From contig NZ_JNBA01000009.1 in NCBI RefSeq assembly GCF_000760295.1, positions 1-64,000 on the forward strand: DNA of 64,000 nucleotides, written 5' to 3'. This document shows, in pieces, positions 41,031 through 56,243 of the stretch. Numbering within the stretch: position 1 is the first letter of the stretch; the number at the start of each line of letters is the position of its first letter. The position numbers and the translations under genes are program-made. The notes under the pieces are model-generated. The model did no database searches, had not been told where the DNA came from, and saw nothing but the letters and a program-made list of their open reading frames with translations. Source of the stretch: Prochlorococcus sp. MIT 0701 (GTDB lineage: Bacteria; Cyanobacteriota; Cyanobacteriia; PCC-6307; Cyanobiaceae).

Positions 41031-41716
41031 CGCAACACCTCAAGACGCACTTGGGCAATACCACTCGATACCAAACCAAGCTCATGGGCAGCACCATGAG
41101 CAAGATCGATGACGCGATGAGCGATAAAAGGGCCGCGATCGTTGATTGTCACAACAGCAGAACGATCATTCCAAAGGTTGGTCACCCTTACCTTGGTACC
41201 AAAAGGCAAGCTGCGATGAGCCGCTGTCATCGTGCCTGGCCTGAAAACTTCACCACTTGCAGTTCGGTTTCCGAAAAAGCCCGGGCCGTACCAGCTTGCT
41301 TCGCCAGTGCTCACTTGAACAACAGTGGGAGTTGGCTTGACAGATCGGTTGAGCTTGGCAACTGGAACGATTGGTAACTCTGGTGGTGTCTCAACAACTG
41401 AATCAACAGTTAAACCAGTAACGACATCAGCACTGCCTTGATCTGAGCTGCCTTGATCTGAGCTGCCTTGATCTGAGCTGCCTTGATCTGAGCTGCCTTG
41501 ATCTGAGCTGCCTTGATCTGAGCTGCCTTGATCTGAGCTGCCTTGATTGGCAGAGAAAGGCGTCGCCAGAAGCGAGATTCGTTCAAGCAGGGCTGTCTTT
41601 ACCTGTTCCCTGGTGACCTTTTTGTCGAGGTCAAGATCAAGGGCAAAGGCTGGTAAAAGTGCAGCACTGCTGGAGCAAACACCAGCAAGAACAAGAAGCG
41701 AAACGGAAAATCTCAT
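41027..41716 (-). CDS. rlpA: RlpA-like protein with GSSDQ repeats
   Basis: A 229-residue secreted protein. An N-terminal signal peptide (VSLLVLAGVCSSSAALLPA) is followed by a linker of seven SSDQG repeats (about residues 59-95), then a double-psi beta-barrel RlpA domain: GEASWYGPGFFGNRTASGEV, MTAAHRSLPFGTKVRVTN and VVTINDRGPFIAHRVIDL. RlpA proteins act on peptidoglycan in the periplasm, often at the septum. Its stop overlaps the proposed panC start. Confidence 0.88.
   Translation of the reverse strand: MRFSVSLLVLAGVCSSSAALLPAFALDLDLDKKVTREQVKTALLERISLLATPFSANQGSSDQGSSDQGSSDQGSSDQGSSDQGSSDQGSSDQGSADVVTGLTVDSVVETPPELPIVPVAKLNRSVKPTPTVVQVSTGEASWYGPGFFGNRTASGEVFRPGTMTAAHRSLPFGTKVRVTNLWNDRSAVVTINDRGPFIAHRVIDLAHGAAHELGLVSSGIAQVRLEVLR
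41432..41550 (-). repeat. 15-bp tandem repeat inside rlpA
   Basis: Near-perfect 15-bp units (gctgccttgatctga on the plus strand) repeat about seven times with partial units at both ends. Each unit encodes GSSDQ on the minus strand. The units are almost identical in DNA, which points to recent expansion. Confidence 0.93.
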
Positions 41717-47717: not shown

Positions 47718-47944
47718 GGCCACCTCATTCGTGACAAGAGAGCTCAACCCGCTTTGAATGCTGACCCTTGCACCACAACACAACAGGTTCTCCCCCCCAT
47801 AAAGAGCCTTAGGGTCAAGCCTGAAATAGGGCACCGCATCGGATGCCCTATTTCAGGCCTCATTTTCTGAGTATCTGCATCTAGAACTCCTAAATCAATC
47901 CTGAGCTGTCGGAATCAAAGCATCAGCAAGTAAAGCCGACCCAT

Positions 47945-48535
47945 TTGATTGACATTCAAGCGCTTAGGCAAAGCCCCCCTGCCAGCACTTCACGTCAGAG
48001 CGCCGAGCCTCAAGCTGAGGCATTCAATCAAGCAGAGTGCTGTCTTGCCTTTCACGAGACCATAAGCACTAGGGTGAAAGAAGTTGGCAGACCACAACTG
48101 CAAATTGCTTTGGCAGCAATCGATGAAGGTGATGAATTGGTGGTCGTGAAGTTGAACCGACTAGAACGAAACCAAGTGGAGGTGATTGCAAGGCTCCACG
48201 ACCTTCAAAAGCAAGGCATCCATATCAAAGCACTGGATGGTCTGATCAACACAAGAGCATGAGGCAAGTTTGCGCAAGCCCTTCTTGGACTTCTTTCTGG
48301 TCTTGCTGAAGTAGAGCATTCGCTGACCCGTGACAAAACACTTGAGCAGATTCAGCACCGCTTGAAAACAGGAGGGAAAGTTGGAGGACGACCCAAGACA
48401 ACTGCTGCAAAGGAGAGTTTGGTGCTTAGGTTGAGGGATGAAGGGTGCTCTTTTCGTTCCATCAGAAAACAAACAGGTCTTGCACTCTCATCAATCCGCA
48501 GGATCATCATGAAAAAGGAAGCATTAGCAGCATGA
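47945..48535 (+). pseudogene. Decayed serine recombinase (resolvase)
   Basis: A broken copy of the serine recombinase at 54.9 kb. After a degraded N-terminus (STSRQSAEPQAEAFNQAECC aligns with the intact catalytic-Ser region) it keeps HETISTRVKE-GRPQLQIAL and GDELVVVKLNRLERNQVEVI. An in-frame TGA interrupts it at 48260-48262. It then continues GKFAQALLGLLSGLAEVEHS, GGRPKTTAAKESLVLRLRDE and the HTH end SIRKQTGLALSSIRRII. The canonical N-terminal YARxSTxxQ is damaged. It sits just outside the tRNA-Cys element and looks like the end of an older insertion. Confidence 0.88.
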
Positions 48536-48672
48536 ACCTGATCGAAGCACACAAGAGATCTATTGAACGTGAAAAGAAGAAGCTTGGGGTTTCTGACTAT
48601 GGGTTGCTCTGGATTTCCTTCCTAAGAGGAGCATTTGTCGCCCTGATCATTGAGAGGTTAATCGTCCATTAA
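48532..48672 (+). CDS. Small membrane protein (46 aa) after recombinase pseudogene
   Basis: A 46-residue frame from ATG 48532, overlapping the pseudogene stop (ATGA) and the next start (TAATG). A polar N-terminal helix (MNLIEAHKRSIEREKKKLGV) leads into a hydrophobic segment (YGLLWISFLRGAFVALIIER). The coupling suggests an original operon with the recombinase. Confidence 0.5.
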   Translation: MNLIEAHKRSIEREKKKLGVSDYGLLWISFLRGAFVALIIERLIVH

Positions 48673-48848
48673 TGAAAACAGTCTTACTTGGCGTCATCCT
48701 TGCCCTTCTCTGGTCTTCGCCTCAATCAAGAAACACAACAGCCAATGGTCTAAGGATGGCGGCAAACTGGTTGGATCCAAAGGAGGAACCAACAAAGAAC
48801 CCCACACACATAAAAATCCCCAACCCCTTATATGTTGAGCAAGAATAA
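48672..48848 (+). CDS. Small membrane protein (58 aa), paralogue of 55434-55616 product
   Basis: A 58-residue frame from ATG 48672. Its N-terminus (MKTVLLGVILALLWSSPQSR, then NTTANGLRMAANWLDPKEEP) aligns with the small protein that follows the intact recombinase (VGLGFFLFTNPEARQITADL, then LRSTANAIAPEQD). This makes the recombinase plus mini-protein module duplicated. One membrane helix is predicted; function unknown. Confidence 0.55.
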   Translation: MKTVLLGVILALLWSSPQSRNTTANGLRMAANWLDPKEEPTKNPTHIKIPNPLYVEQE

Positions 48849-48888
48849 AAATAGAGCTCATTTCTAATTAAGAGATCAAAACTATTCA

Positions 48889-49020
48889 ATGGCCTCTATA
48901 ATTCGAGATGAGCAAGCTTTAAAAAAGGCGGCAGAGCAAAAACCACCCTCCCCCTACGCTGTTGGAATGGGAATTCTACTTAAACCATTTTCATATTTGC
49001 TCTTATTTCCTACCCATTGA
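48889..49020 (+). CDS. Possible small protein (43 aa)
   Basis: A 43-residue frame from ATG 48889, beginning MASIIRDEQALKKAAEQKPP and ending with a hydrophobic stretch (ILLKPFSYLLLFPTH). It may be a peripheral membrane peptide. Weak support. Confidence 0.33.
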   Translation: MASIIRDEQALKKAAEQKPPSPYAVGMGILLKPFSYLLLFPTH

Positions 49021-49075
49021 ATAAATAAGAGCATCAGCGATGTTAGTTTAAGCAAAGTTGGTTTATTGCCCTCAT

Positions 49076-49342
49076 ATGAAAGACGCTGATGAGCAAGTTT
49101 TAAGCGAAGAGAGGAAAGAGGAATGGCGAGATCATGTTCTTCAAGAAATAGTTAATTTTCTTGGGTCCCGCAAGGAGGAAATTTATGAGAACTACGCCAA
49201 GCAGAGCGAAGGAAGACTCTCCAAAGAAGTGATTGAGGATGAAGGATTGATGGACTTTGAACTCGCGATTACTTTCCTACGAGACAAGAAAAAATGGTTT
49301 GGACTTGGCTCCGGTTTCTTCAAGGCTAATCTCATTCGTTAA
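49076..49342 (+). CDS. Hypothetical acidic protein (88 aa)
   Basis: An 88-residue charged helical protein (DEQVLSEERKEEWRDHVLQE; FLGSRKEEIYENYAKQSEGR). I start at ATG 49076; the frame is open to 49058. The family is not recognised. It is the last gene before the left att repeat and probably belongs to the older insertion. Confidence 0.5.
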   Translation: MKDADEQVLSEERKEEWRDHVLQEIVNFLGSRKEEIYENYAKQSEGRLSKEVIEDEGLMDFELAITFLRDKKKWFGLGSGFFKANLIR

Positions 49343-49457
49343 GTTAATGGAATGGTTACAACGTTGGATGAGAAGTAGCCCAACTCCCCTTCCGCTTTTG
49401 CAGAGAACTAAGACGAGAACACGCCAGTTACTGCAACTTGCTTGGAGGACATTGTCG

Positions 49458-49488
49458 AAGGCGGCACCCAGATTCGAACTGGGGATAA
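49458..49488 (+). repeat. Left attachment repeat (partial tRNA-Cys 3' end)
   Basis: 31 bp identical to 56213-56243, covering the acceptor 3' strand and T-arm of tRNA-Cys (in antisense on the plus strand). The rest of the tRNA is absent here, as expected for the distal att site after integration into a tRNA 3' end. Confidence 0.93.
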
Positions 49489-49536
49489 GTTTCTAAAAAT
49501 GCGGATATAACTGGGATTATAGGTAGGAAAAGCGCC

Positions 49537-49560
49537 GATTCACCTTCCACTCACCTTCCA
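49537..49560 (+). promoter_or_regulatory. Candidate integrase arm-type sites, left end
   Basis: The pair gattcaccttcc-a-ctcaccttcca lies 49 nt inside the left repeat. It matches 56127-56150 near the right end with one central difference. Short repeats near both att cores are typical arm sites of tyrosine integrases. Confidence 0.55.
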
Positions 49561-49623
49561 GTCGCGCTAAAAAGAACACTCCCAGACCTTCACGTTCAGA
49601 GGTCTGCAGAAGGTGACTTCAAG

Positions 49624-51006
49624 GTGCCCCGCTCTCTTCCCGATAACTGGTCGAACCTGAGCGTCTCGGACTTGGGCATCAAGGGTTCGTTCCCCAACAA
49701 CCTGAAAATCAAGAGGGTCGCGAGGAGCGAAAACCTCTACGCGTCCTGGTTGCCCGACGCCGAGGCGGATACACGTCCGAATCAGGGAAGGAGCGGCAAG
49801 ACCAACAAAAGAGTGCCGCTAACGGCATCTATGGGGACCTCTGACCCGCTTGAAGCAGGGAAACGGGCAGTTGAGTGGGTTGGCAAGCAGCAGCGCGCTC
49901 AAGAGGCGCAGAAGGCGGAGAGAGGAAACAACCTCGGCGTCTATTGGGACAGTTGGTTCGCCAACGAGTGCAGAACCAGAGAGACGAAGCGCAACTTCAC
50001 CAGGTGGAAGCGTGATGAGCGCCTGAAGTGGGAGGGCGAGGCATATGGGATTAAGCACCAACCCTGGGCGCTCAAATCTGTTGAAGACATCACCGCCCTC
50101 GACTTTGAGGACTACTGGCGAGTGCTGGATGCACGCAGAACCGCCAAAAACGATATGGGCGGCACCAAAGCAGCACAGAAGACCCTGATTCGGAAACTGC
50201 TGCGGGAAGCAAGAAGCGACCACCCCCGCCTAAGCATTCCCGAGTTTCCGACCATCACCCGTCAGACAGAGCAGGTGGTGCATTTGAAGAAGTCCGACTG
50301 GGAGCGCCTGGTCAAAAAGGTGGTGGAACTCTCTGGAGGTGCTGCAAGGAAGCAACTAAGCGCCAAGCAATACGAGGCACTTCAGTTCTCCAAGGCGAAG
50401 AGACAGTCCCAACGGAACTGGGTGGACCTCTACGACGCGTTGCACCTGCTCTGGTTCTTCCATCTACGAGCAGAGGACCTCCCACGCCTGCGGGCGGAAT
50501 GGTTCAGCGACACAGGCGATGACGAAATCATCTGCCTACTGGAGGAGACCAAAGGCAATCGCCACAAGCACGAAACTCGCTCTTATCGGGTCGATGCTCC
50601 CTCGAACTGGAGACGCTTGGCACAGAGGAAACCGAGCGGTTATTTGGTCTTCCCTCACATCGTCAGACCCAAAGGAAATCCAGCAGAGAGTTCTGTTCTC
50701 GACAACTTCAACGACCTCCTACGCACAGCGATGGATGCCTGTGACCCGCCAATCCCGTCGAAGGGGATGACAGCAACCAACATCCGTCACACAGCATTCC
50801 GACTGATGCTTGAGGAAGTTCCTGCACTAGGACGACCTCCACTCATCCATTCCTTTGCAGAAAATGGAATGACCTCAGCAGCGATGCTGGAGAGAACGTA
50901 TCTGAAATACATCGACCAAGAGAGCACCGCCAAGAAGGTCAGAGCACAAACAAAATCAAGCGAATGGTCCCTTCAAAAGAGAGCAGAGAAGCAGAAGGGC
51001 GTGTGA
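49624..51006 (+). CDS. int: Tyrosine recombinase (phage-type integrase)
   Basis: A 460-residue integrase. The N-terminal arm/core-binding region includes VYWDSWFANECRTRETKRNF. In the catalytic domain the first Arg is in LWFFHLRAEDLPRLRAEWF (about 285-303), the Lys in LEETKGNRHK, the H-x-x-R-like box in TNIRHTAFRLM (about 385-395) and the nucleophile Tyr in ERTYLKYID near 435. Start is GTG 49624. It lies 135 nt inside the left repeat, reading inward, and is the likely driver of integration at tRNA-Cys. Confidence 0.92.
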   Translation: MPRSLPDNWSNLSVSDLGIKGSFPNNLKIKRVARSENLYASWLPDAEADTRPNQGRSGKTNKRVPLTASMGTSDPLEAGKRAVEWVGKQQRAQEAQKAERGNNLGVYWDSWFANECRTRETKRNFTRWKRDERLKWEGEAYGIKHQPWALKSVEDITALDFEDYWRVLDARRTAKNDMGGTKAAQKTLIRKLLREARSDHPRLSIPEFPTITRQTEQVVHLKKSDWERLVKKVVELSGGAARKQLSAKQYEALQFSKAKRQSQRNWVDLYDALHLLWFFHLRAEDLPRLRAEWFSDTGDDEIICLLEETKGNRHKHETRSYRVDAPSNWRRLAQRKPSGYLVFPHIVRPKGNPAESSVLDNFNDLLRTAMDACDPPIPSKGMTATNIRHTAFRLMLEEVPALGRPPLIHSFAENGMTSAAMLERTYLKYIDQESTAKKVRAQTKSSEWSLQKRAEKQKGV

Positions 51007-51013
51007 CAGTTTT

Positions 51014-51033
51014 CCCCTCTATAAGAGGGGTTT
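51014..51033 (+). terminator. Hairpin after integrase gene
   Basis: A perfect 7-bp stem (51014-51020 with 51024-51030), 3-nt loop and a short TTT tail, 8 nt past the integrase stop. The short T-run makes it a moderate terminator. Confidence 0.6.
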
Positions 51034-51156
51034 GAAAAGCGTCAAAACGAACGCCGAGAACCCTTTCCACCACTCAATACCTGCCACTTATTTACGCACA
51101 GATATAGGGTCCAAATAAACTGTCCCACACCAGGCAGATTCACCCAATAAACGCCG

Positions 51157-51162
51157 TATAAT
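51157..51162 (+). promoter_or_regulatory. Candidate -10 element upstream of 51322 operon
   Basis: A perfect TATAAT hexamer lies in the 315-nt gap between the integrase gene and the next gene. The expected -35 position shows no good TTGACA match, so the promoter would be weak or activated. Nothing else is recognised in this gap. Confidence 0.4.
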
Positions 51163-51321
51163 ATGTCTATCGAAACGAAGGGCGAACACCTTCCTCTGCG
51201 GTATATAAATCAAATACACGCCACCGCGCTTGCCGCCCTGGCGAAGTCAATAAACTGACTATAAACCCTACGCAGAAGACTGCGAGAACAACGTACCCAT
51301 ACTGCTTTTCCAGGAAATCAA

Positions 51322-51636
51322 ATGAACGCACAAGAACTCTATTCTGAACTCTCCGCTTGGATGAGAGATTCTGATGTTATTCCAAGTGATTGGGAAGAGG
51401 TTATCTGGGAGTATCTAAATGAGGAATACTCCGAAGATGTGGCAGACAACTTCACCGAACAGGTAATGGACCTATTTGGAGTCAAGAAGCAGTCCCAAAA
51501 AACTATTCAGGAATGGTTGTCCGAATGTCCCACTTCCTGGAATATGGAGTACCACGAAGATTTTGGCAAAATGTGCTTTTTCATTCGTGAAGAGAACGAA
51601 GACGAAAAATCTTTCGTTGAAGCATTCAACTGCTGA
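51322..51636 (+). CDS. Hypothetical acidic protein of the element (104 aa)
   Basis: A 104-residue, very acidic, Trp-rich protein (SELSAWMRDSDVIPSDWEEV; IWEYLNEEYSEDVADNFTEQ). Such composition occurs in DNA-mimic and anti-defence proteins, but there is no family match that I recognise. The stop overlaps the start of the zinc-ribbon gene (TGATG), so the two are translationally coupled. Confidence 0.65.
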   Translation: MNAQELYSELSAWMRDSDVIPSDWEEVIWEYLNEEYSEDVADNFTEQVMDLFGVKKQSQKTIQEWLSECPTSWNMEYHEDFGKMCFFIREENEDEKSFVEAFNC

Positions 51637-52076
51637 TGCAGTCACCAGAGCAACTACTGCAGCGCCTTTATGGACGCTTCCCTGGATGGAGAAAGACCCA
51701 GGAAAATACTGCCTATCGGTTCAGGTGTCCCTACTGCCAGCACAGCACCGATACGCGTGCTCATAAGCACAAGGGATACATCCATCCAGACCAGGGACGA
51801 CCAGGAAGGTTTCGCTTCAAGTGCCACAACTGTGGCGAACACAAATCACTACTGGACTTCGTGAAGGAGCAAGCGCCCGACTTGCTTCTGTCGCCTGCAG
51901 CACCCTCAGAGACGGTCTCTGAACCCTCTGAGAGCAGCAGTAGCGGTCAGAAGGTGACCAAGTTGCCAAGGGGTCAGAGCGTCTCGGACAACCTCTGGAG
52001 GTCCAGGCATATGCCCAGGCATCTTTACAGGGGTAATCCGAGAACCATTAAGAGCAACAACGAAGACAGGGACTGA
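51636..52076 (+). CDS. Primase-like zinc-ribbon protein
   Basis: A 146-residue protein. Residues about 28-70 hold a zinc ribbon: RCPYCQHSTDT, RFRFKCHNCGEHKSLLDFVK, in the spacing seen in the N-terminal zinc domains of phage primases (T7 gp4 type, CxxC...CxxC). The remainder is Ser/Pro-rich with a basic end. No catalytic primase or helicase domain is present. It may prime or regulate element replication, or be a stand-alone DNA-binding factor. A terminator hairpin overlaps its stop. Confidence 0.7.
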   Translation: MQSPEQLLQRLYGRFPGWRKTQENTAYRFRCPYCQHSTDTRAHKHKGYIHPDQGRPGRFRFKCHNCGEHKSLLDFVKEQAPDLLLSPAAPSETVSEPSESSSSGQKVTKLPRGQSVSDNLWRSRHMPRHLYRGNPRTIKSNNEDRD

Positions 52077-52098
52077 AGAGTCTCTGTCTTTTTCTTTG
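52066..52098 (+). terminator. Strong terminator of the 51322-52076 operon
   Basis: A 10-bp stem (52066-52075 with 52080-52089, one G-U), GAAG loop, then TTTTTCTTT. It includes the stop codon of the zinc-ribbon gene. Confidence 0.88.
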
Positions 52099-52452
52099 CC
52101 TCTAACAAAATCATTTATCCTTGTTTGATAACAATCGTTTATCAATGGTCTTTTCTGGCAGATAACTCTTATACATAGAGGTGAAGAATATGATGATTCA
52201 TCTTCAAGTCCATTCTTGAAGAGGACTTGAAACCTCAGAGACTAAATAGTTGCAAGAGGTTTGACTTCCGCGTTCCATCCGCATAAGAAGTTTTCTGGAT
52301 ACCTTCTGTTCTTATTTTGACCAGAAGTTCATCAAATGGATATTATTGTTGAAATAAAGGGATTTACCTTGTCCCCTTAGTGTGTTGTCTATCAGTAGAT
52401 TGTTTCATCCAGAACCTCTTTTTTGTTGTATGTATTTCCACTAGAAAGGATT
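52099..52452. other. Regulatory gap in the element
   Basis: About 354 nt with no gene. It holds an inverted repeat (TTGATAA at 52125-52131 and TTATCAA at 52139-52145, 7-nt spacer) and CTAAATA at 52242-52248. AT-rich, likely carrying the promoter and operator of the downstream small-gene operon. Confidence 0.5.
52125..52145. promoter_or_regulatory. Inverted repeat, possible operator
   Basis: Perfect 7-bp half sites TTGATAA/TTATCAA separated by 7 nt, upstream of a gene for a ribbon-helix-helix-like protein. It could be that protein's operator; a second terminator is less likely as no T-run follows. Confidence 0.4.
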
Positions 52453-52623
52453 ATGAACCAAACAAAGACTCCCTCTTCAAATGTTTCGTTTAACTCTAGA
52501 GAGGTTCCTTATTTTCGTGCTTTAGAGCAGGACTTGGTGCGTAAGACAAAGATGACTAAATCCGCTGTCTATAAACAGGCGCTTAAGGAGTATCACGGCA
52601 AACACTTTACCCATCAAATGTGA
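52453..52623 (+). CDS. Small ribbon-helix-helix-like protein (56 aa)
   Basis: A 56-residue protein from ATG 52453, preceded by AGAAAGGA. A beta-strand-like start (NVSFNSREVPYF) leads to helices LEQDLVRKTKMTKSAVYKQA, then LKEYHGK, as in CopG/Arc DNA-binding proteins. I drop the 10-residue upstream extension because this start has the better ribosome site. It is probably a regulator of the element. Confidence 0.58.
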   Translation: MNQTKTPSSNVSFNSREVPYFRALEQDLVRKTKMTKSAVYKQALKEYHGKHFTHQM

Positions 52624-52624
52624 A

Positions 52625-52930
52625 ATGAATATCAATACGCTCGTGAGCATTCGTAAATGGTACGAAGACCAGTTAGAACCATTAAAAGGGTCTCCTGGTC
52701 ACTCAACTGTTAGGCGATATATCTATCAGCGTATTAATGAAATCAATATGATTTTGTTTTCGCAGGATGAGCAAGAGACCTTGAGGTCACTTGATGCTTT
52801 GTTCTTGCTTGAACCGATAAGTAGAAATGCATCCCCAGTCAATCCTGATATCAATACAACCTATGAGGTGACCGATGAAGAGACACCCGATTTCGTTTTC
52901 AACCTTTGCAGCAGAAGCAAAGGCGTCTAA
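52625..52930 (+). CDS. Hypothetical protein (101 aa)
   Basis: A 101-residue protein. The N-terminal helical half (LVSIRKWYEDQLEPLKGSPG; RRYIYQRINEINMILF) is followed by an acidic, probably disordered tail. It begins 1 nt after the preceding stop and overlaps the next gene by 56 nt, so it is in a tight phage-like operon. No family recognised. Confidence 0.55.
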   Translation: MNINTLVSIRKWYEDQLEPLKGSPGHSTVRRYIYQRINEINMILFSQDEQETLRSLDALFLLEPISRNASPVNPDINTTYEVTDEETPDFVFNLCSRSKGV

Positions 52931-53186
52931 GACTAAGCAAGAAAAGCGAAGGAAGAAAATCAGCAAACTCCAGAGCAGAACTGGCGGTTCTGAGGAACTC
53001 TGGTCTGGACTTGAAGGCAAGGAATACAGCAATCCAGCAGACCTCAACTGGAAAGCAAAGGACACCTATACAGAGCAGTTCCTGGACCGCTTAAGAGACT
53101 TGCTCAGGACTAATACAGAGATGACCCCGCTTGAGGTCACACAGCGTCTCTACATCATTTACGACGAAACTATTGGACAACGATGA
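52875..53186 (+). CDS. Hypothetical basic protein (103 aa)
   Basis: A 103-residue protein. The Lys-rich N-terminus (KASKTKQEKRRKKISKLQSR) is followed by a helical part (YTEQFLDRLRDLLRTNTEMT). It overlaps both neighbours, and its stop shares bases with the next ATG. It may bind nucleic acid, but this rests only on charge. Confidence 0.52.
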   Translation: MKRHPISFSTFAAEAKASKTKQEKRRKKISKLQSRTGGSEELWSGLEGKEYSNPADLNWKAKDTYTEQFLDRLRDLLRTNTEMTPLEVTQRLYIIYDETIGQR

Positions 53187-53329
53187 TGAATATCAAGATT
53201 AACCGACTCAACGAACGATACCTCAGAGAGATGATTCAAAAGAACTCTAGATATGGTTCTATGGAGTCCCTTGTCAATGAAGCAGTAGACCAGTTCTATC
53301 AGCAAGAAAAGAAACGAAGATTTAAGTGA
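53183..53329 (+). CDS. Ribbon-helix-helix-like mini protein (48 aa)
   Basis: A 48-residue frame from ATG 53183 (second ATG at 53186). MNIKINRLNERYLREMIQKN, then GSMESLVNEAVDQFYQQEKK, shows the strand-helix-helix layout of CopG/ParD-type antitoxins and regulators. It is too short for standard gene callers. Its start overlaps the preceding stop. Confidence 0.55.
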   Translation: MMNIKINRLNERYLREMIQKNSRYGSMESLVNEAVDQFYQQEKKRRFK

Positions 53330-53340
53330 TTTTAGAATGA

Positions 53341-53697
53341 TTGGATGATACAAATCATTTTCAAGTCGGTAAATTCAAAGTAATCTTTGAAATCGTGCTT
53401 GATGACAGCGACAGGAATGGAAAAACGCTGTCGCATATGAGGGAACTCATCTTCAAGCATGACAATCAGGAAGATCCAGCATCTGCTTTGAAGGACTTCT
53501 ATGAGCAATTCCAGGAGATGGCGATTCTCGGGAACAGCGTTAATGATTTTCCTGCACTTATTTTTATAGTATTTGCAATGGGAGAAGTCGGTCGCTTTGA
53601 ATTTAATGCAAAAGATGCATGGTTTGCATCATTCTTCGCACGAAATCGCCCTAAGTGTATAATAGAATCAAACCACAGTTCAAGTGCATCATGTTAA
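53341..53697 (+). CDS. Hypothetical protein (118 aa)
   Basis: A frame of 118 residues from TTG 53341. Strand-rich start (FQVGKFKVIFEIVLDDSDRN), then FKHDNQEDPASALKDFYEQF, which resembles small phage or plasmid proteins of unknown role. The end overlaps the next gene. Its start is uncertain. Confidence 0.48.
   Translation: MDDTNHFQVGKFKVIFEIVLDDSDRNGKTLSHMRELIFKHDNQEDPASALKDFYEQFQEMAILGNSVNDFPALIFIVFAMGEVGRFEFNAKDAWFASFFARNRPKCIIESNHSSSASC
53658..53663 (+). promoter_or_regulatory. Candidate -10 element for the 53691 gene
   Basis: A perfect TATAAT 28 nt upstream of ATG 53691, inside the end of the preceding frame. No clear -35 box stands at the usual spacing. Confidence 0.35.
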
Positions 53698-54641
53698 GAA
53701 CTCTTGGGAGACTTGTCTCGACCGCTTTTTCGCTCGGTCTTATTTGGTTCGGGTATACCCAGATTAGATCTGGTGTATCGACGATGAGTGGTTCCTCCTC
53801 TGCGTCAAATGACAAAGACAAAAAAGAATACTCAATTGACGATGCAGAAATGGTTAAAACTATTGCTGGATTGTCTGAAGAGTTTGAGCAAAATTCTGTT
53901 CGAGCAGAGAATGCTTACATGGGTAGAATTATAGCATTCGATGGGATTGTTAATTCGATCGATGACTCTCCCTTTGGAGATAATAGCGCAATAGTTTCGA
54001 TTCGAGATCCTTCCTCTAGTGAGTACACTTTAGAAGGGTTTGATTGTCGTCACAAGCGTGATGATGTCGCAATTGTAAGTCTAAATAAAGGTGAATTTGT
54101 GTCGGTTGTAGGAAAACTAAAGTCAGAAACAATGGGTCTAAGTTTTGCAGGATGCACATACAACTTGGATGGAGTGGGGTCATTTCAAAGGTTTGATGCT
54201 GCGGAATACGAAAGGAATCAAAAATTGAGCATGGAGAAAATGGTAAAACTAAGAAATTCTTTGAGTGAATTTACTGTCGACGACGCTTGCGGAAAATCGA
54301 AAATTTTGGAGGATTGCGATGGCGGAGTGTCCAAGTCTGCTGACAAAAAGAATTATATGATTGTCTGGAACAGCAAGTTTGCAGATCCTAGGTATAGACA
54401 AGACGAAAATGGTATTGAAGTGGCAATAAAAGAAGACGGCGAATTTAAAAGATATATGGGTTCTTGGGAAAACTCGAGAAACTCTTTAAGGGTGTACTTC
54501 AACCCTTATGGGAGAGTGGTGGTTTACGCAGATAATAAAGGTGATTTTAGTTTGAGTCCTTCGTCTATGGGACCTGCAAAAATGTCCTTTGGGTCTTCAA
54601 ATGCAGAAACAGTATTCGTGCACAATCTCGGCGCTCAATAG
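53691..54641 (+). CDS. Membrane-anchored protein with OB-fold-like region
   Basis: A 316-residue protein from ATG 53691. An N-terminal membrane helix (LVSTAFSLGLIWFGYTQI) is followed by a Ser/Lys linker and a domain at about 70-170 (AYMGRIIAFDGIVNSIDDSP; GEFVSVVGKLKSETMGLSFA) that resembles the tRNA_anti-like OB fold of lipoprotein-type proteins. The C-terminal part has paired Cys (DDACGKSKILEDC). It is the largest cargo gene besides the recombinases and has a low-GC codon choice unlike the integrase. Function unknown. Confidence 0.6.
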   Translation: MLRTLGRLVSTAFSLGLIWFGYTQIRSGVSTMSGSSSASNDKDKKEYSIDDAEMVKTIAGLSEEFEQNSVRAENAYMGRIIAFDGIVNSIDDSPFGDNSAIVSIRDPSSSEYTLEGFDCRHKRDDVAIVSLNKGEFVSVVGKLKSETMGLSFAGCTYNLDGVGSFQRFDAAEYERNQKLSMEKMVKLRNSLSEFTVDDACGKSKILEDCDGGVSKSADKKNYMIVWNSKFADPRYRQDENGIEVAIKEDGEFKRYMGSWENSRNSLRVYFNPYGRVVVYADNKGDFSLSPSSMGPAKMSFGSSNAETVFVHNLGAQ

Positions 54642-54739
54642 ATTGGTGCAGTTAGCAGTTAAGAGTTTTTATTTAATAGTCCTGCTCTCTTTGTAGATCT
54701 TCGAGTGGACCAACTCAAGGAAATGCTTTCGGTTTTCGA

Positions 54740-54855
54740 TGTTCCAACAACCGAACGGTTGCGATAACACCTGGGAAATGAGCAGGCACTGGGATCAGGG
54801 TGTTCCAATAACAATGTTCGGTTGCTATGGTTTCACTAACACCCTTTTTGGAACA
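54740..54855 (+). promoter_or_regulatory. Candidate resolution (res) site of the serine recombinase
   Basis: TGTTCCAA occurs at 54740-54747 and 54801-54808, and inverted (TTGGAACA) at 54848-54855 just before the recombinase ATG. The two direct copies are followed at similar distance by CGGTTGCGAT (54756-54765) and CGGTTGCTAT (54819-54828). Clustered direct and inverted subsites next to the gene are typical of resolvase res sites and of autoregulation. Confidence 0.6.
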
Positions 54856-55440
54856 ATGACCGCCCGCAGCGTTGGATATGCCCGCTGTTCCACGGCATCA
54901 CAGAAAACAGACGCTCAGGTTGCAGCGTTGAAAGAAGCAGGTTGCGCGGTCGTCTTTGAGGAGACCATCAGCACGAGGGTCAAAGAGAAAGACCGACCTC
55001 AACTGCAGGCGGCACTGAATGCCGTCGTGGAAGGCGATGAATTGGTGGTGGCGAAGTTGGATCGCCTAGGCAGAACTCAGGTGGAAGTGGTTTCCCGTCT
55101 GCATCAACTGCAGGAGCAAGGGATCCATGTCCGAACGCTTGATGGATTGGTCAACACCAAAGGACTAGGCAAGTTCGCCCCTGTCCTTATTGGTCTGCTT
55201 TCTGGTTTGGCGGAAGTGGAACGCTCACTGATCCAAGAGCGAACCCTGGAGAGCATCCAGCACCGCAGATCAATAGGCGGGAACTTGGGCGGTCGCCCAA
55301 AGACCAACGAAGCAAAGGAGCGCCTGGTGCTGCGCCTAAGGGAGGAGGGGTGCTCCTATCGCTCCATTCGAGAGCAGACAGGACTGGCGCTCTCAACGAT
55401 CCGTCGGATCATTGCTGAACAGGAGGCGGTGTCGTGCTGA
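54856..55440 (+). CDS. Serine recombinase (resolvase/invertase family)
   Basis: A 194-residue protein from ATG 54856. The catalytic domain starts TARSVGYARCSTASQKTDAQ, with the nucleophile Ser in the ARxST motif. Other family blocks: VVAKLDRLGRTQVEVVSRLH, GLLSGLAEVERSLIQERT, GGRPKTNEA and a C-terminal HTH (YRSIREQTGLALSTIRRII). The longer frame from 54739 would run through the res-like repeats and is unlikely. It probably resolves dimers or rearranges the element. A decayed paralogue lies at 47945. Confidence 0.92.
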   Translation: MTARSVGYARCSTASQKTDAQVAALKEAGCAVVFEETISTRVKEKDRPQLQAALNAVVEGDELVVAKLDRLGRTQVEVVSRLHQLQEQGIHVRTLDGLVNTKGLGKFAPVLIGLLSGLAEVERSLIQERTLESIQHRRSIGGNLGGRPKTNEAKERLVLRLREEGCSYRSIREQTGLALSTIRRIIAEQEAVSC

Positions 55441-55616
55441 AAATCCTTGTTGGCGTTGGACTTGGGTTCTTTCTCTTCACCAACCCAGAGGCAAGGCAGA
55501 TCACCGCAGACCTGCTGAGATCAACTGCGAATGCGATTGCCCCTGAGCAAGACGGCAAGACTTTTCAGGACAGGGTGAAGGATGCCGTGGTGGAGAAAGT
55601 TAAGGAGGGCGACTAA
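55434..55616 (+). CDS. Small membrane protein linked to serine recombinase (60 aa)
   Basis: A 60-residue protein from GTG 55434, overlapping the recombinase stop by 7 nt. One membrane helix (KILVGVGLGFFLFTNPEARQ) is followed by an amphipathic polar tail (DGKTFQDRVKDAVVEKVKEG). A paralogue follows the decayed recombinase at 48672, so the pair is a conserved module. Function unknown. Confidence 0.65.
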   Translation: MLKILVGVGLGFFLFTNPEARQITADLLRSTANAIAPEQDGKTFQDRVKDAVVEKVKEGD

Positions 55617-55668
55617 TGGGAAGGGGAAGAGGGTAGTTCCGAGTCGAAGAACTGAACCCTTTTATGGA

Positions 55669-55812
55669 ATGGCACCTACATACGACAGAAGCGTCATTAG
55701 AGATCGCCTCTGCATCAGCAAAGAGGATCGCCAGGGTGATCGGACGAAGAACATGAGTCCTGAGCGAAGACGGAGCATTATTGACTCAGGTGGATCCTTA
55801 AAAGCGCCCTAG
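55669..55812 (+). CDS. Doubtful small basic ORF (47 aa)
   Basis: A 47-residue frame from ATG 55669, Arg/Asp-rich (YDRSVIRDRLCISKEDRQGD). No family and no clear ribosome site. It may be chance. Confidence 0.25.
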   Translation: MAPTYDRSVIRDRLCISKEDRQGDRTKNMSPERRRSIIDSGGSLKAP

Positions 55813-55826
55813 TTGACTTGCGACTT

Positions 55827-56057
55827 ATGAGGTTCCTGCTGCTCCCCCTACTGCTCTTGTCCCTTGCCACTCCAGCAATCGCTCAGATGAAGTTCGTTCT
55901 GCAATACCAAGACCAGTTCGGTTCCTGGAGGAGGTGGGGTGAGAAGCACAACGAGGGTGATGCCTACAGGACTGCCACGGCGAGAGCGAAGGCAACGGGC
56001 AAGCGGTTTCGCATCGTTGATGGCAACGGCAACCTCGTCGACCTTGTGACCCCCTAG
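55827..56057 (+). CDS. Small secreted protein (76 aa)
   Basis: A 76-residue protein from ATG 55827 with a textbook signal peptide (RFLLLPLLLLSLATPAIAQ) and a ~56-residue mature domain (FVLQYQDQFGSWRRWGEKHN; KRFRIVDGNGNLVDLVTP). Such a compact domain reads like a picocyanobacterial or cyanophage small exported family. It is the last gene of the element, before the right-end repeats. Function unknown. Confidence 0.62.
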   Translation: MRFLLLPLLLLSLATPAIAQMKFVLQYQDQFGSWRRWGEKHNEGDAYRTATARAKATGKRFRIVDGNGNLVDLVTP

Positions 56058-56081
56058 GAGCACACCCCCTCTACGTCACTC

Positions 56082-56150
56082 GGAAGGTGAATCTGGGAGA
56101 CTTCTTTGCGGCGAATCAGAACTGCTGATTCACCTTCCGCTCACCTTCCG
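56082..56150. promoter_or_regulatory. Candidate integrase arm-type sites, right end
   Basis: gattcaccttcc is present inverted at 56082-56093 and direct at 56127-56138, the latter followed by ctcaccttcc as at the left end. The cluster lies about 63 nt inside the right repeat. This mirror of the left-end sites supports arm-binding by the integrase. Confidence 0.55.
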
Positions 56151-56212
56151 TGTCGTTCAAGAAGAAATCCCCGAGAATGCAGTCACAATCAGCACTCTCA
56201 GGGATTTTCTCA

Positions 56213-56243
56213 AAGGCGGCACCCAGATTCGAACTGGGGATAA
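56213..56243 (-). repeat. Right attachment repeat within tRNA-Cys
   Basis: 31 bp identical to 49458-49488. It covers the last 30 nt of the tRNA-Cys gene (plus one base), so integration leaves the tRNA intact. Confidence 0.93.

Follow-up and report, generated by a model that had tools for sequence, protein, structure and literature searches.

A 6.8-kb integrative element at the tRNA-Cys gene of a Prochlorococcus genome, with a divergent tyrosine integrase, a probable resolvase and a cyanophage primase-like zinc protein

We describe a small integrative element in Prochlorococcus sp. MIT 0701, found in a 64,000-nt stretch of DNA that we call the window (contig NZ_JNBA01000009.1, positions 1 to 64,000; the genome comprises 2.59 Mb in 53 contigs). 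The element is almost certainly a 6,755-bp insertion at the 3′ end of a tRNA-Cys gene, with a divergent tyrosine integrase at one end and a small serine recombinase towards the other. Open-ocean picocyanobacteria swap genes, although reports of conjugation machinery and typical prophages in them are rare. With its ends mapped exactly, and with the empty sites, the arm repeats and a res-like site described here, the mechanism of a published class of elements becomes testable, and a zinc protein resembling part of a cyanophage primase is a concrete lead on the relations between elements and phages in these hosts. The main value of the analysis is the mechanistic anatomy of this class of elements at base resolution. 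Positions are those of the window, and features are collected in Table 1.

The insertion is bounded by an exact direct repeat of 31 bp (49458–49488 and 56213–56243), whose inner 29 bases occur at these two places only, both in the window, where the shuffle expectation is zero, and in the whole genome. An intact tRNA-Cys(GCA) lies on the minus strand at the second copy, so one copy of the repeat is the 3′ end of the tRNA. The first-pass annotation of this DNA, made from the letters alone, had read the repeat as the tRNA-Cys 3′ end bounding 6.8 kb, and both the repeat search and ARAGORN bear this out. It had also proposed looking for an empty tRNA-Cys site in related strains, and two relatives have one. 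In G001, a closed genome of 2,410,873 bases that is the nearest closed relative, and in G002, base-level alignment shows that the left flank of the window continues straight into the tRNA with a single copy of the core: window positions 47930–49488 meet 56207 onward with an overlap of 37 bp. The right flank in both genomes is ~95% identical to the window, and the element is absent. A single core copy is also present in G003 and G004 (~80% identical). Since the flanks are joined with one core copy in G001 and G002, the length of the element is 6,755 bp. With an intact integrase, identical attachment (att) repeats and an empty site in relatives, the earlier description of a small integrative element at tRNA-Cys holds.

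The 460-aa protein encoded next to the distal att copy is, judging by its catalytic residues and predicted fold, a tyrosine recombinase. Searches against Pfam integrase families are empty for it and for each of 16 homologues, and the window integrase is unmatched by NCBIfam too. Residues R282, K310, R388, H389 and Y426 are invariant in an alignment of 17 sequences. The AlphaFold2 model has a predicted local distance difference test (pLDDT) score of 82, and the solved structures that it matches best are the integrases of Tn1549 (E 8e-4) and lambda (9e-4), followed by XerA and Cre. A housekeeping Xer recombinase was ruled out, given the protein's own divergent family and mobile context. Homologues occur in 35 of 300 genomes of the host's family; across the phylum (386 genomes) there were eight matches, all within that same family, and the named matches come from Prochlorococcus, Synechococcus and Vulcanococcus. 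No homologue was found in phage, plasmid or IMG/VR collections. Searches of contigs returned nothing when the integrase alone was the query, and 16 loci when the query was the integrase alignment. Both att copies could be located for 14 elements, and in this boundary-resolved set every element lies at tRNA-Cys or tRNA-Phe, spans 6.1–10.7 kb and has its integrase adjoining the distal att. Some relatives carry a broken integrase.

Inside each end of the element, a 9-bp repeat occurs twice, exactly 11 bp apart, usually with one inverted copy farther inward. The arm pairs are common to both ends, with summed mismatches of 0–3 in 13 of the 14 elements; shuffled sequences never gave fewer than seven. 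The sequence of the repeat varies by integrase group: TCACCTTCC in the window element, and TTACCTACC, TTTCCTACC, TCACCTACC, CTCCCCTACC, TTACATACC and others elsewhere. The right ends of the window element and of element L051 are 89% identical over 113 bp and nevertheless carry different arm repeats, which fits a matching of arms to integrase. Given this architecture, we consider it very probable that the integrase works with arm-type sites. Element L050 (G168:C4) looks composite: its tRNA end and its integrase end carry different arms, and the flank past its distal att bears a terminator of the window element's type.

A serine recombinase is present in 13 of the 14 resolved elements; hence, the pairing of a tyrosine with a serine recombinase is typical of the class. 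The first-pass annotation had called the pairing unusual, a view that finds no support here; the association had also been noted in a 2023 preprint (PMC10187409). The same annotation had the element start with the integrase and end with the serine recombinase. The integrase does adjoin the distal att and the serine recombinase does lie near the tRNA-side copy, but it is not the last gene, as two small open reading frames (ORFs) follow it. Several subfamilies of serine recombinase (the window copy and the most distant share 27% identity) partner the one integrase family, and their orientation relative to the integrase varies. The block directly 5′ of the gene has a conservation of 0.67–0.89 among relatives, as compared with ~0.43–0.54 farther upstream. 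Its outer part forms a dyad (16+2+16 in L126) with a 2-bp centre, of the form expected for the crossover site of a serine resolvase, and its inner part holds a second dyad. As at Tn3-type sites, a crossover dyad centred on 2 bp thus lies by the gene, with accessory sites seen only as the second dyad. The window holds a single copy of the res-like site, which makes the resolution of multimers a likelier task than inversion; a role as DNA invertase is disfavoured for the same reason. We conclude that the serine recombinase is likely to be a resolvase. The module also occurs in islands near tRNA-Ser that carry other integrases, and G230, from another genus, has a copy with 93% identity at the DNA level and 98% at the protein level. 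This last copy belongs to an island at tRNA-Ser(CGA) with a different integrase (L126:3469–14873), which also contains three large ORFs resembling a type I restriction-modification system.

The element further encodes a 146-aa protein that matches the N-terminal ~80 residues of gp61, the primase of T4-like cyanophages (332 aa in the phage), and is without the catalytic part of the primase. The homology to the zinc domain reaches E values of 5e-9 by tblastn, with 529 phage records matched, and 99.1% by HHalign. Relatives of this protein in Synechococcus-type genomes stand beside a small protein of 55–60 aa and quite different tyrosine integrases, which indicates that the zinc protein is a piece common to elements with different integrases. 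Remote versions are found in L052, L053 and L059, which have the same integrase family (HHalign ~94–95%). Loci L158–L166 represent another family of integrative elements, with an integrase of ~355 aa and the same primase-zinc and small proteins; most of them adjoin a gene fragment reading MIDNKTVITGSFNWSP.

Table 1 Features of the element and its surroundings (window positions)
Feature	Position	Strand	Evidence
Serine recombinase pseudogene of fossil element, internal TGA stop, 65% identical	47981–48529		
Companion-like small ORF of fossil element	48672–48848		
Distal att copy, 31-bp core equal to tRNA-Cys 3′ end	49458–49488	+	Repeat search; empty-site alignment
Left arm-type pair, TCACCTTCC twice, 11 bp apart (49540, 49551); predicted function	49540–49559	+	Repeat search
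Left inverted arm-type copy, one mismatch	49608–49616	-	Repeat search
Divergent tyrosine integrase, 460 aa	49624–51006	+	Catalytic residues, predicted fold
Conserved non-coding stretch, three small hairpins (51219–51243, 51245–51260, 51271–51284)	51099–51303	+	Sequence comparison
ORF, 104 aa	51322–51636	+	ORF list; no database match
Stand-alone homologue of zinc domain of cyanophage gp61 primase, 146 aa	51636–52076	+	tblastn, HHalign
Small protein, 56 aa, predicted ribbon-helix-helix-like; partners zinc protein in other elements	52453–52623	+	Inspection
Three small ORFs (101, 103, 48 aa)	52625–53329	+	ORF list, database searches
316-aa protein, tRNA_anti-like OB domain and superinfection-exclusion (Sie)-like match	53691–54641	+	OB domain E 7e-9; PHROG E 1e-10
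Res-like site: crossover-type dyad 54738–54771 (2-bp centre), second dyad ~54800–54856	54738–54858	+	Conservation, dyad search
Small serine recombinase, probable resolvase	54856–55440	+	Pfam Resolvase E 3.6e-31
Two small ORFs recurring with serine recombinase: 60 aa (55434–55616), 76 aa (55827–56057)	55434–56057	+	ORF comparison
Right inverted arm-type copy	56082–56090	-	Repeat search
Right arm-type pair, TCACCTTCC twice, 11 bp apart (56130, 56141)	56130–56149	+	Repeat search
Intrinsic terminator behind tRNA-Cys, element-borne	56158–56206	-	-23.9 kcal/mol
tRNA-side att copy	56213–56243	+	Repeat search
tRNA-Cys(GCA), left intact, sole copy in genome	56214–56284	-	ARAGORN

A terminator is present at the tRNA side in 10 of the 14 elements, and a strong one lies past the distal att in one case only, suggesting that insertion probably supplies transcription termination. 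The conserved non-coding stretch that follows the integrase gene is 72–75% identical to elements with other integrases, whereas the adjacent coding sequence is only 61–66% identical; it shares 94% identity over 54 nt with L049. Copies of its hairpin array occur, besides the window, at L049:6453–6506 and in L158, L159 (two copies) and L160, with differing integrases. In the second and third hairpins, both partners of four out of ten pairs differ from copy to copy (AGTC/GACT becomes AGAC/GTCT, for instance, and CGCAG/CTGCG becomes CGGTG/CACCG), as counted by eye, the MAFFT alignment being out of register by a single column at the third hairpin. The region folds slightly better than shuffled sequence on the plus strand (z = -1.9) and no better on the minus strand, and the tRNA was the sole real match to Rfam. 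Both a structured RNA, such as a leader, and an origin are possible readings of this stretch.

To the left of the insertion (47945–49393) lies a fossil element. G001 and G002 carry a TCCCCTTCC pair with 11-bp spacing, ~73–84 bp from the tRNA end, and the window retains a single TCCCCTTCC arm copy, at 49385. Because the remains of a fossil stand beside the insertion, the same tRNA has probably been hit at least twice, and the empty site of the relatives is not pristine. The closest DNA relative also shifts along the element itself, from L047/L048 at the integrase (65%) to L158–L161 in the zinc region, L126 in the resolvase module (93%) and L051 at the right end (89%); by this comparison, the element is a mosaic. 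Elsewhere in the window (41430–41550), a short tandem repeat consists of GATCTGAGCTGCCTT units.

The Sie-like protein is likely to be cargo. Among the window proteins, Pfam, PHROGs and NCBIfam gave no match to relaxase or conjugation genes, the hallmark of integrative conjugative or mobilizable elements, and no AlpA or complete primase was matched; PADLOC found no defence system. The first-pass annotation had described the element as lacking structural and conjugation genes, and none was detected among its genes. Six other elements with this integrase family (L047, L048, L049, L051, L056 and L060) encode 180–223-aa proteins with HUH-like motifs (such as AFHTHLHL ... YNLKDYY), for which Pfam and PDB profile searches were empty and structure prediction reached a pLDDT of only 35. 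From their motifs, these proteins are possible initiators of rolling-circle replication. The window element has no gene for such a protein.

We favour, as likely, an integration and resolution mechanism of the following kind. The integrase would most likely recombine the 31-bp core while bridging to the arm-type repeats at both ends. Insertion would leave the tRNA intact and place the element-borne terminator behind it, and excision would yield a circle and an empty site like that of the relatives. The serine recombinase would most likely act as a resolvase at the upstream res-like site, reducing circular or replicating multimers to single units. The zinc-domain homologue suggests that an infecting T4-like cyanophage has a part in replication, or in its hindrance; we hold this phage link tentatively, as somewhat short of probable, and find phage involvement in transfer plausible. 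Several points weigh against the mechanism as a whole. Neither a circle, nor excision, nor resolution has been observed, and no excisionase was identified. The accessory res subsites within 54738–54858 show only as a second dyad, DNA invertases are among the homologues of the serine recombinase in phages, and there is no recognisable catalytic replication gene and no packaging or transfer gene.

A full phage satellite would excise when a T4-like cyanophage infects, use its zinc protein to recruit or divert the helper primosome, replicate, and be packaged by the helper. A gp61 zinc-domain homologue that is without the catalytic part and recurs alongside other integrases would suit such a life cycle, as would Sie-like cargo, and small satellites without capsid genes are known (PICMI, PMC10803314). 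However, the element has no packaging, capsid or terminase gene, and searches of IMG/VR and phage records did not recover its integrase, att end or serine recombinase, the phage matches to the last staying below 60% identity; we therefore regard a full satellite as unlikely. We also think it improbable that the serine recombinase is a DNA invertase or a passenger moving separately between islands. Among phage proteins, invertases of the Gin type are closest to it, its direction with respect to the integrase varies from element to element, and its module turns up in tRNA-Ser islands with other integrases, with 93% DNA identity to the copy from another genus, but a single site copy leaves no invertible segment in the window, and presence in 13 of 14 elements exceeds what a passenger would lead one to expect.

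Nor does the element look like a decaying, immobile island in which repeats are merely retained. The broken integrases of some relatives and the fossil next door would agree with decay, but here the integrase and serine recombinase are intact, the att repeats identical and the arm and res sites whole, and two ~95%-identical relatives lack the element, so that this reading is quite improbable. The element is probably still functional. The first-pass annotation had placed it among the tycheposons, mobile elements of Prochlorococcus that use tRNA genes. In keeping with that label, it is inserted at the 3′ end of a tRNA, its tyrosine recombinase is divergent, its host is of the Prochlorococcus type, and its size falls in the quoted range of 4–200 kb (PMC10872708, which names tRNA-Met as one of seven tycheposon tRNA genes). 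Against it, the phylogeny of PMC10187409 separates the tRNA-Phe/Cys integrases from those of tycheposons, and we find the label unsupported and very unlikely to apply. More speculatively, and with the odds against it, the element could be a simple case of a wider picocyanobacterial class whose common backbone consists of an interchangeable tyrosine integrase, a resolvase with its res site, a small DNA-binding protein, a stand-alone gp61-type primase zinc domain and a conserved hairpin array (an origin or regulatory RNA), in which the zinc domain parasitises or blocks the replisome of T4-like cyanophages.

PMC10187409 reports, in Prochlorococcus and Synechococcus, a novel family of tyrosine integrases that typically lie upstream of a tRNA-Phe or tRNA-Cys gene, are distinct by phylogeny from tycheposon and VEIME integrases and are often near a small serine recombinase that may resolve insertions; the preprint describes the mechanism as yet to be worked out. 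The integrase family, its two tRNAs and the serine recombinase association were thus already described; the arm repeats, the res-like site, the gp61 zinc-domain homologue, the tRNA-end terminator and the neighbouring fossil are new here. The window element shares every reported feature, namely a divergent integrase with catalytic residues, a tRNA-Phe/Cys site and a frequent serine recombinase; by these features, not by sequence, we place it among these tRNA-Phe/tRNA-Cys integrase elements, to which it probably belongs. Like the cluster158946 elements of the preprint (reference WP_052038630), it has an integrase missed by family models, a lambda-Int-like model and variable cargo, and to the att cores, arm sites, res site and primase-like protein, which the available account does not include, the present description now extends.

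The element resembles tycheposons in being anchored at a tRNA, in its tyrosine recombinase and in its Prochlorococcus host, and differs in carrying no nutrient cargo and, following PMC10187409, in its integrase clade. PICMI, phage satellites of Vibrionaceae (PMC10803314), are likewise small, with an integrase, few genes, no capsid genes and a primase-related gene; in PICMI the integrase, AlpA and a primase lie beside fis, an arrangement not found here, where AlpA was not detected, only the zinc part of the primase is present and the site is tRNA-Cys. Core and arm-type repeats at both ends recall lambda-type or Tn916/Tn1549-type integrases, and the pairing of a small serine recombinase with a neighbouring dyad that has a 2-bp centre recalls Tn3-type res and resolvase. 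Unlike any of these systems, the element has at each end a fixed pair with 11-bp spacing plus one inverted copy, and, without a transposase, it holds both recombination systems within a single 6.8-kb unit.

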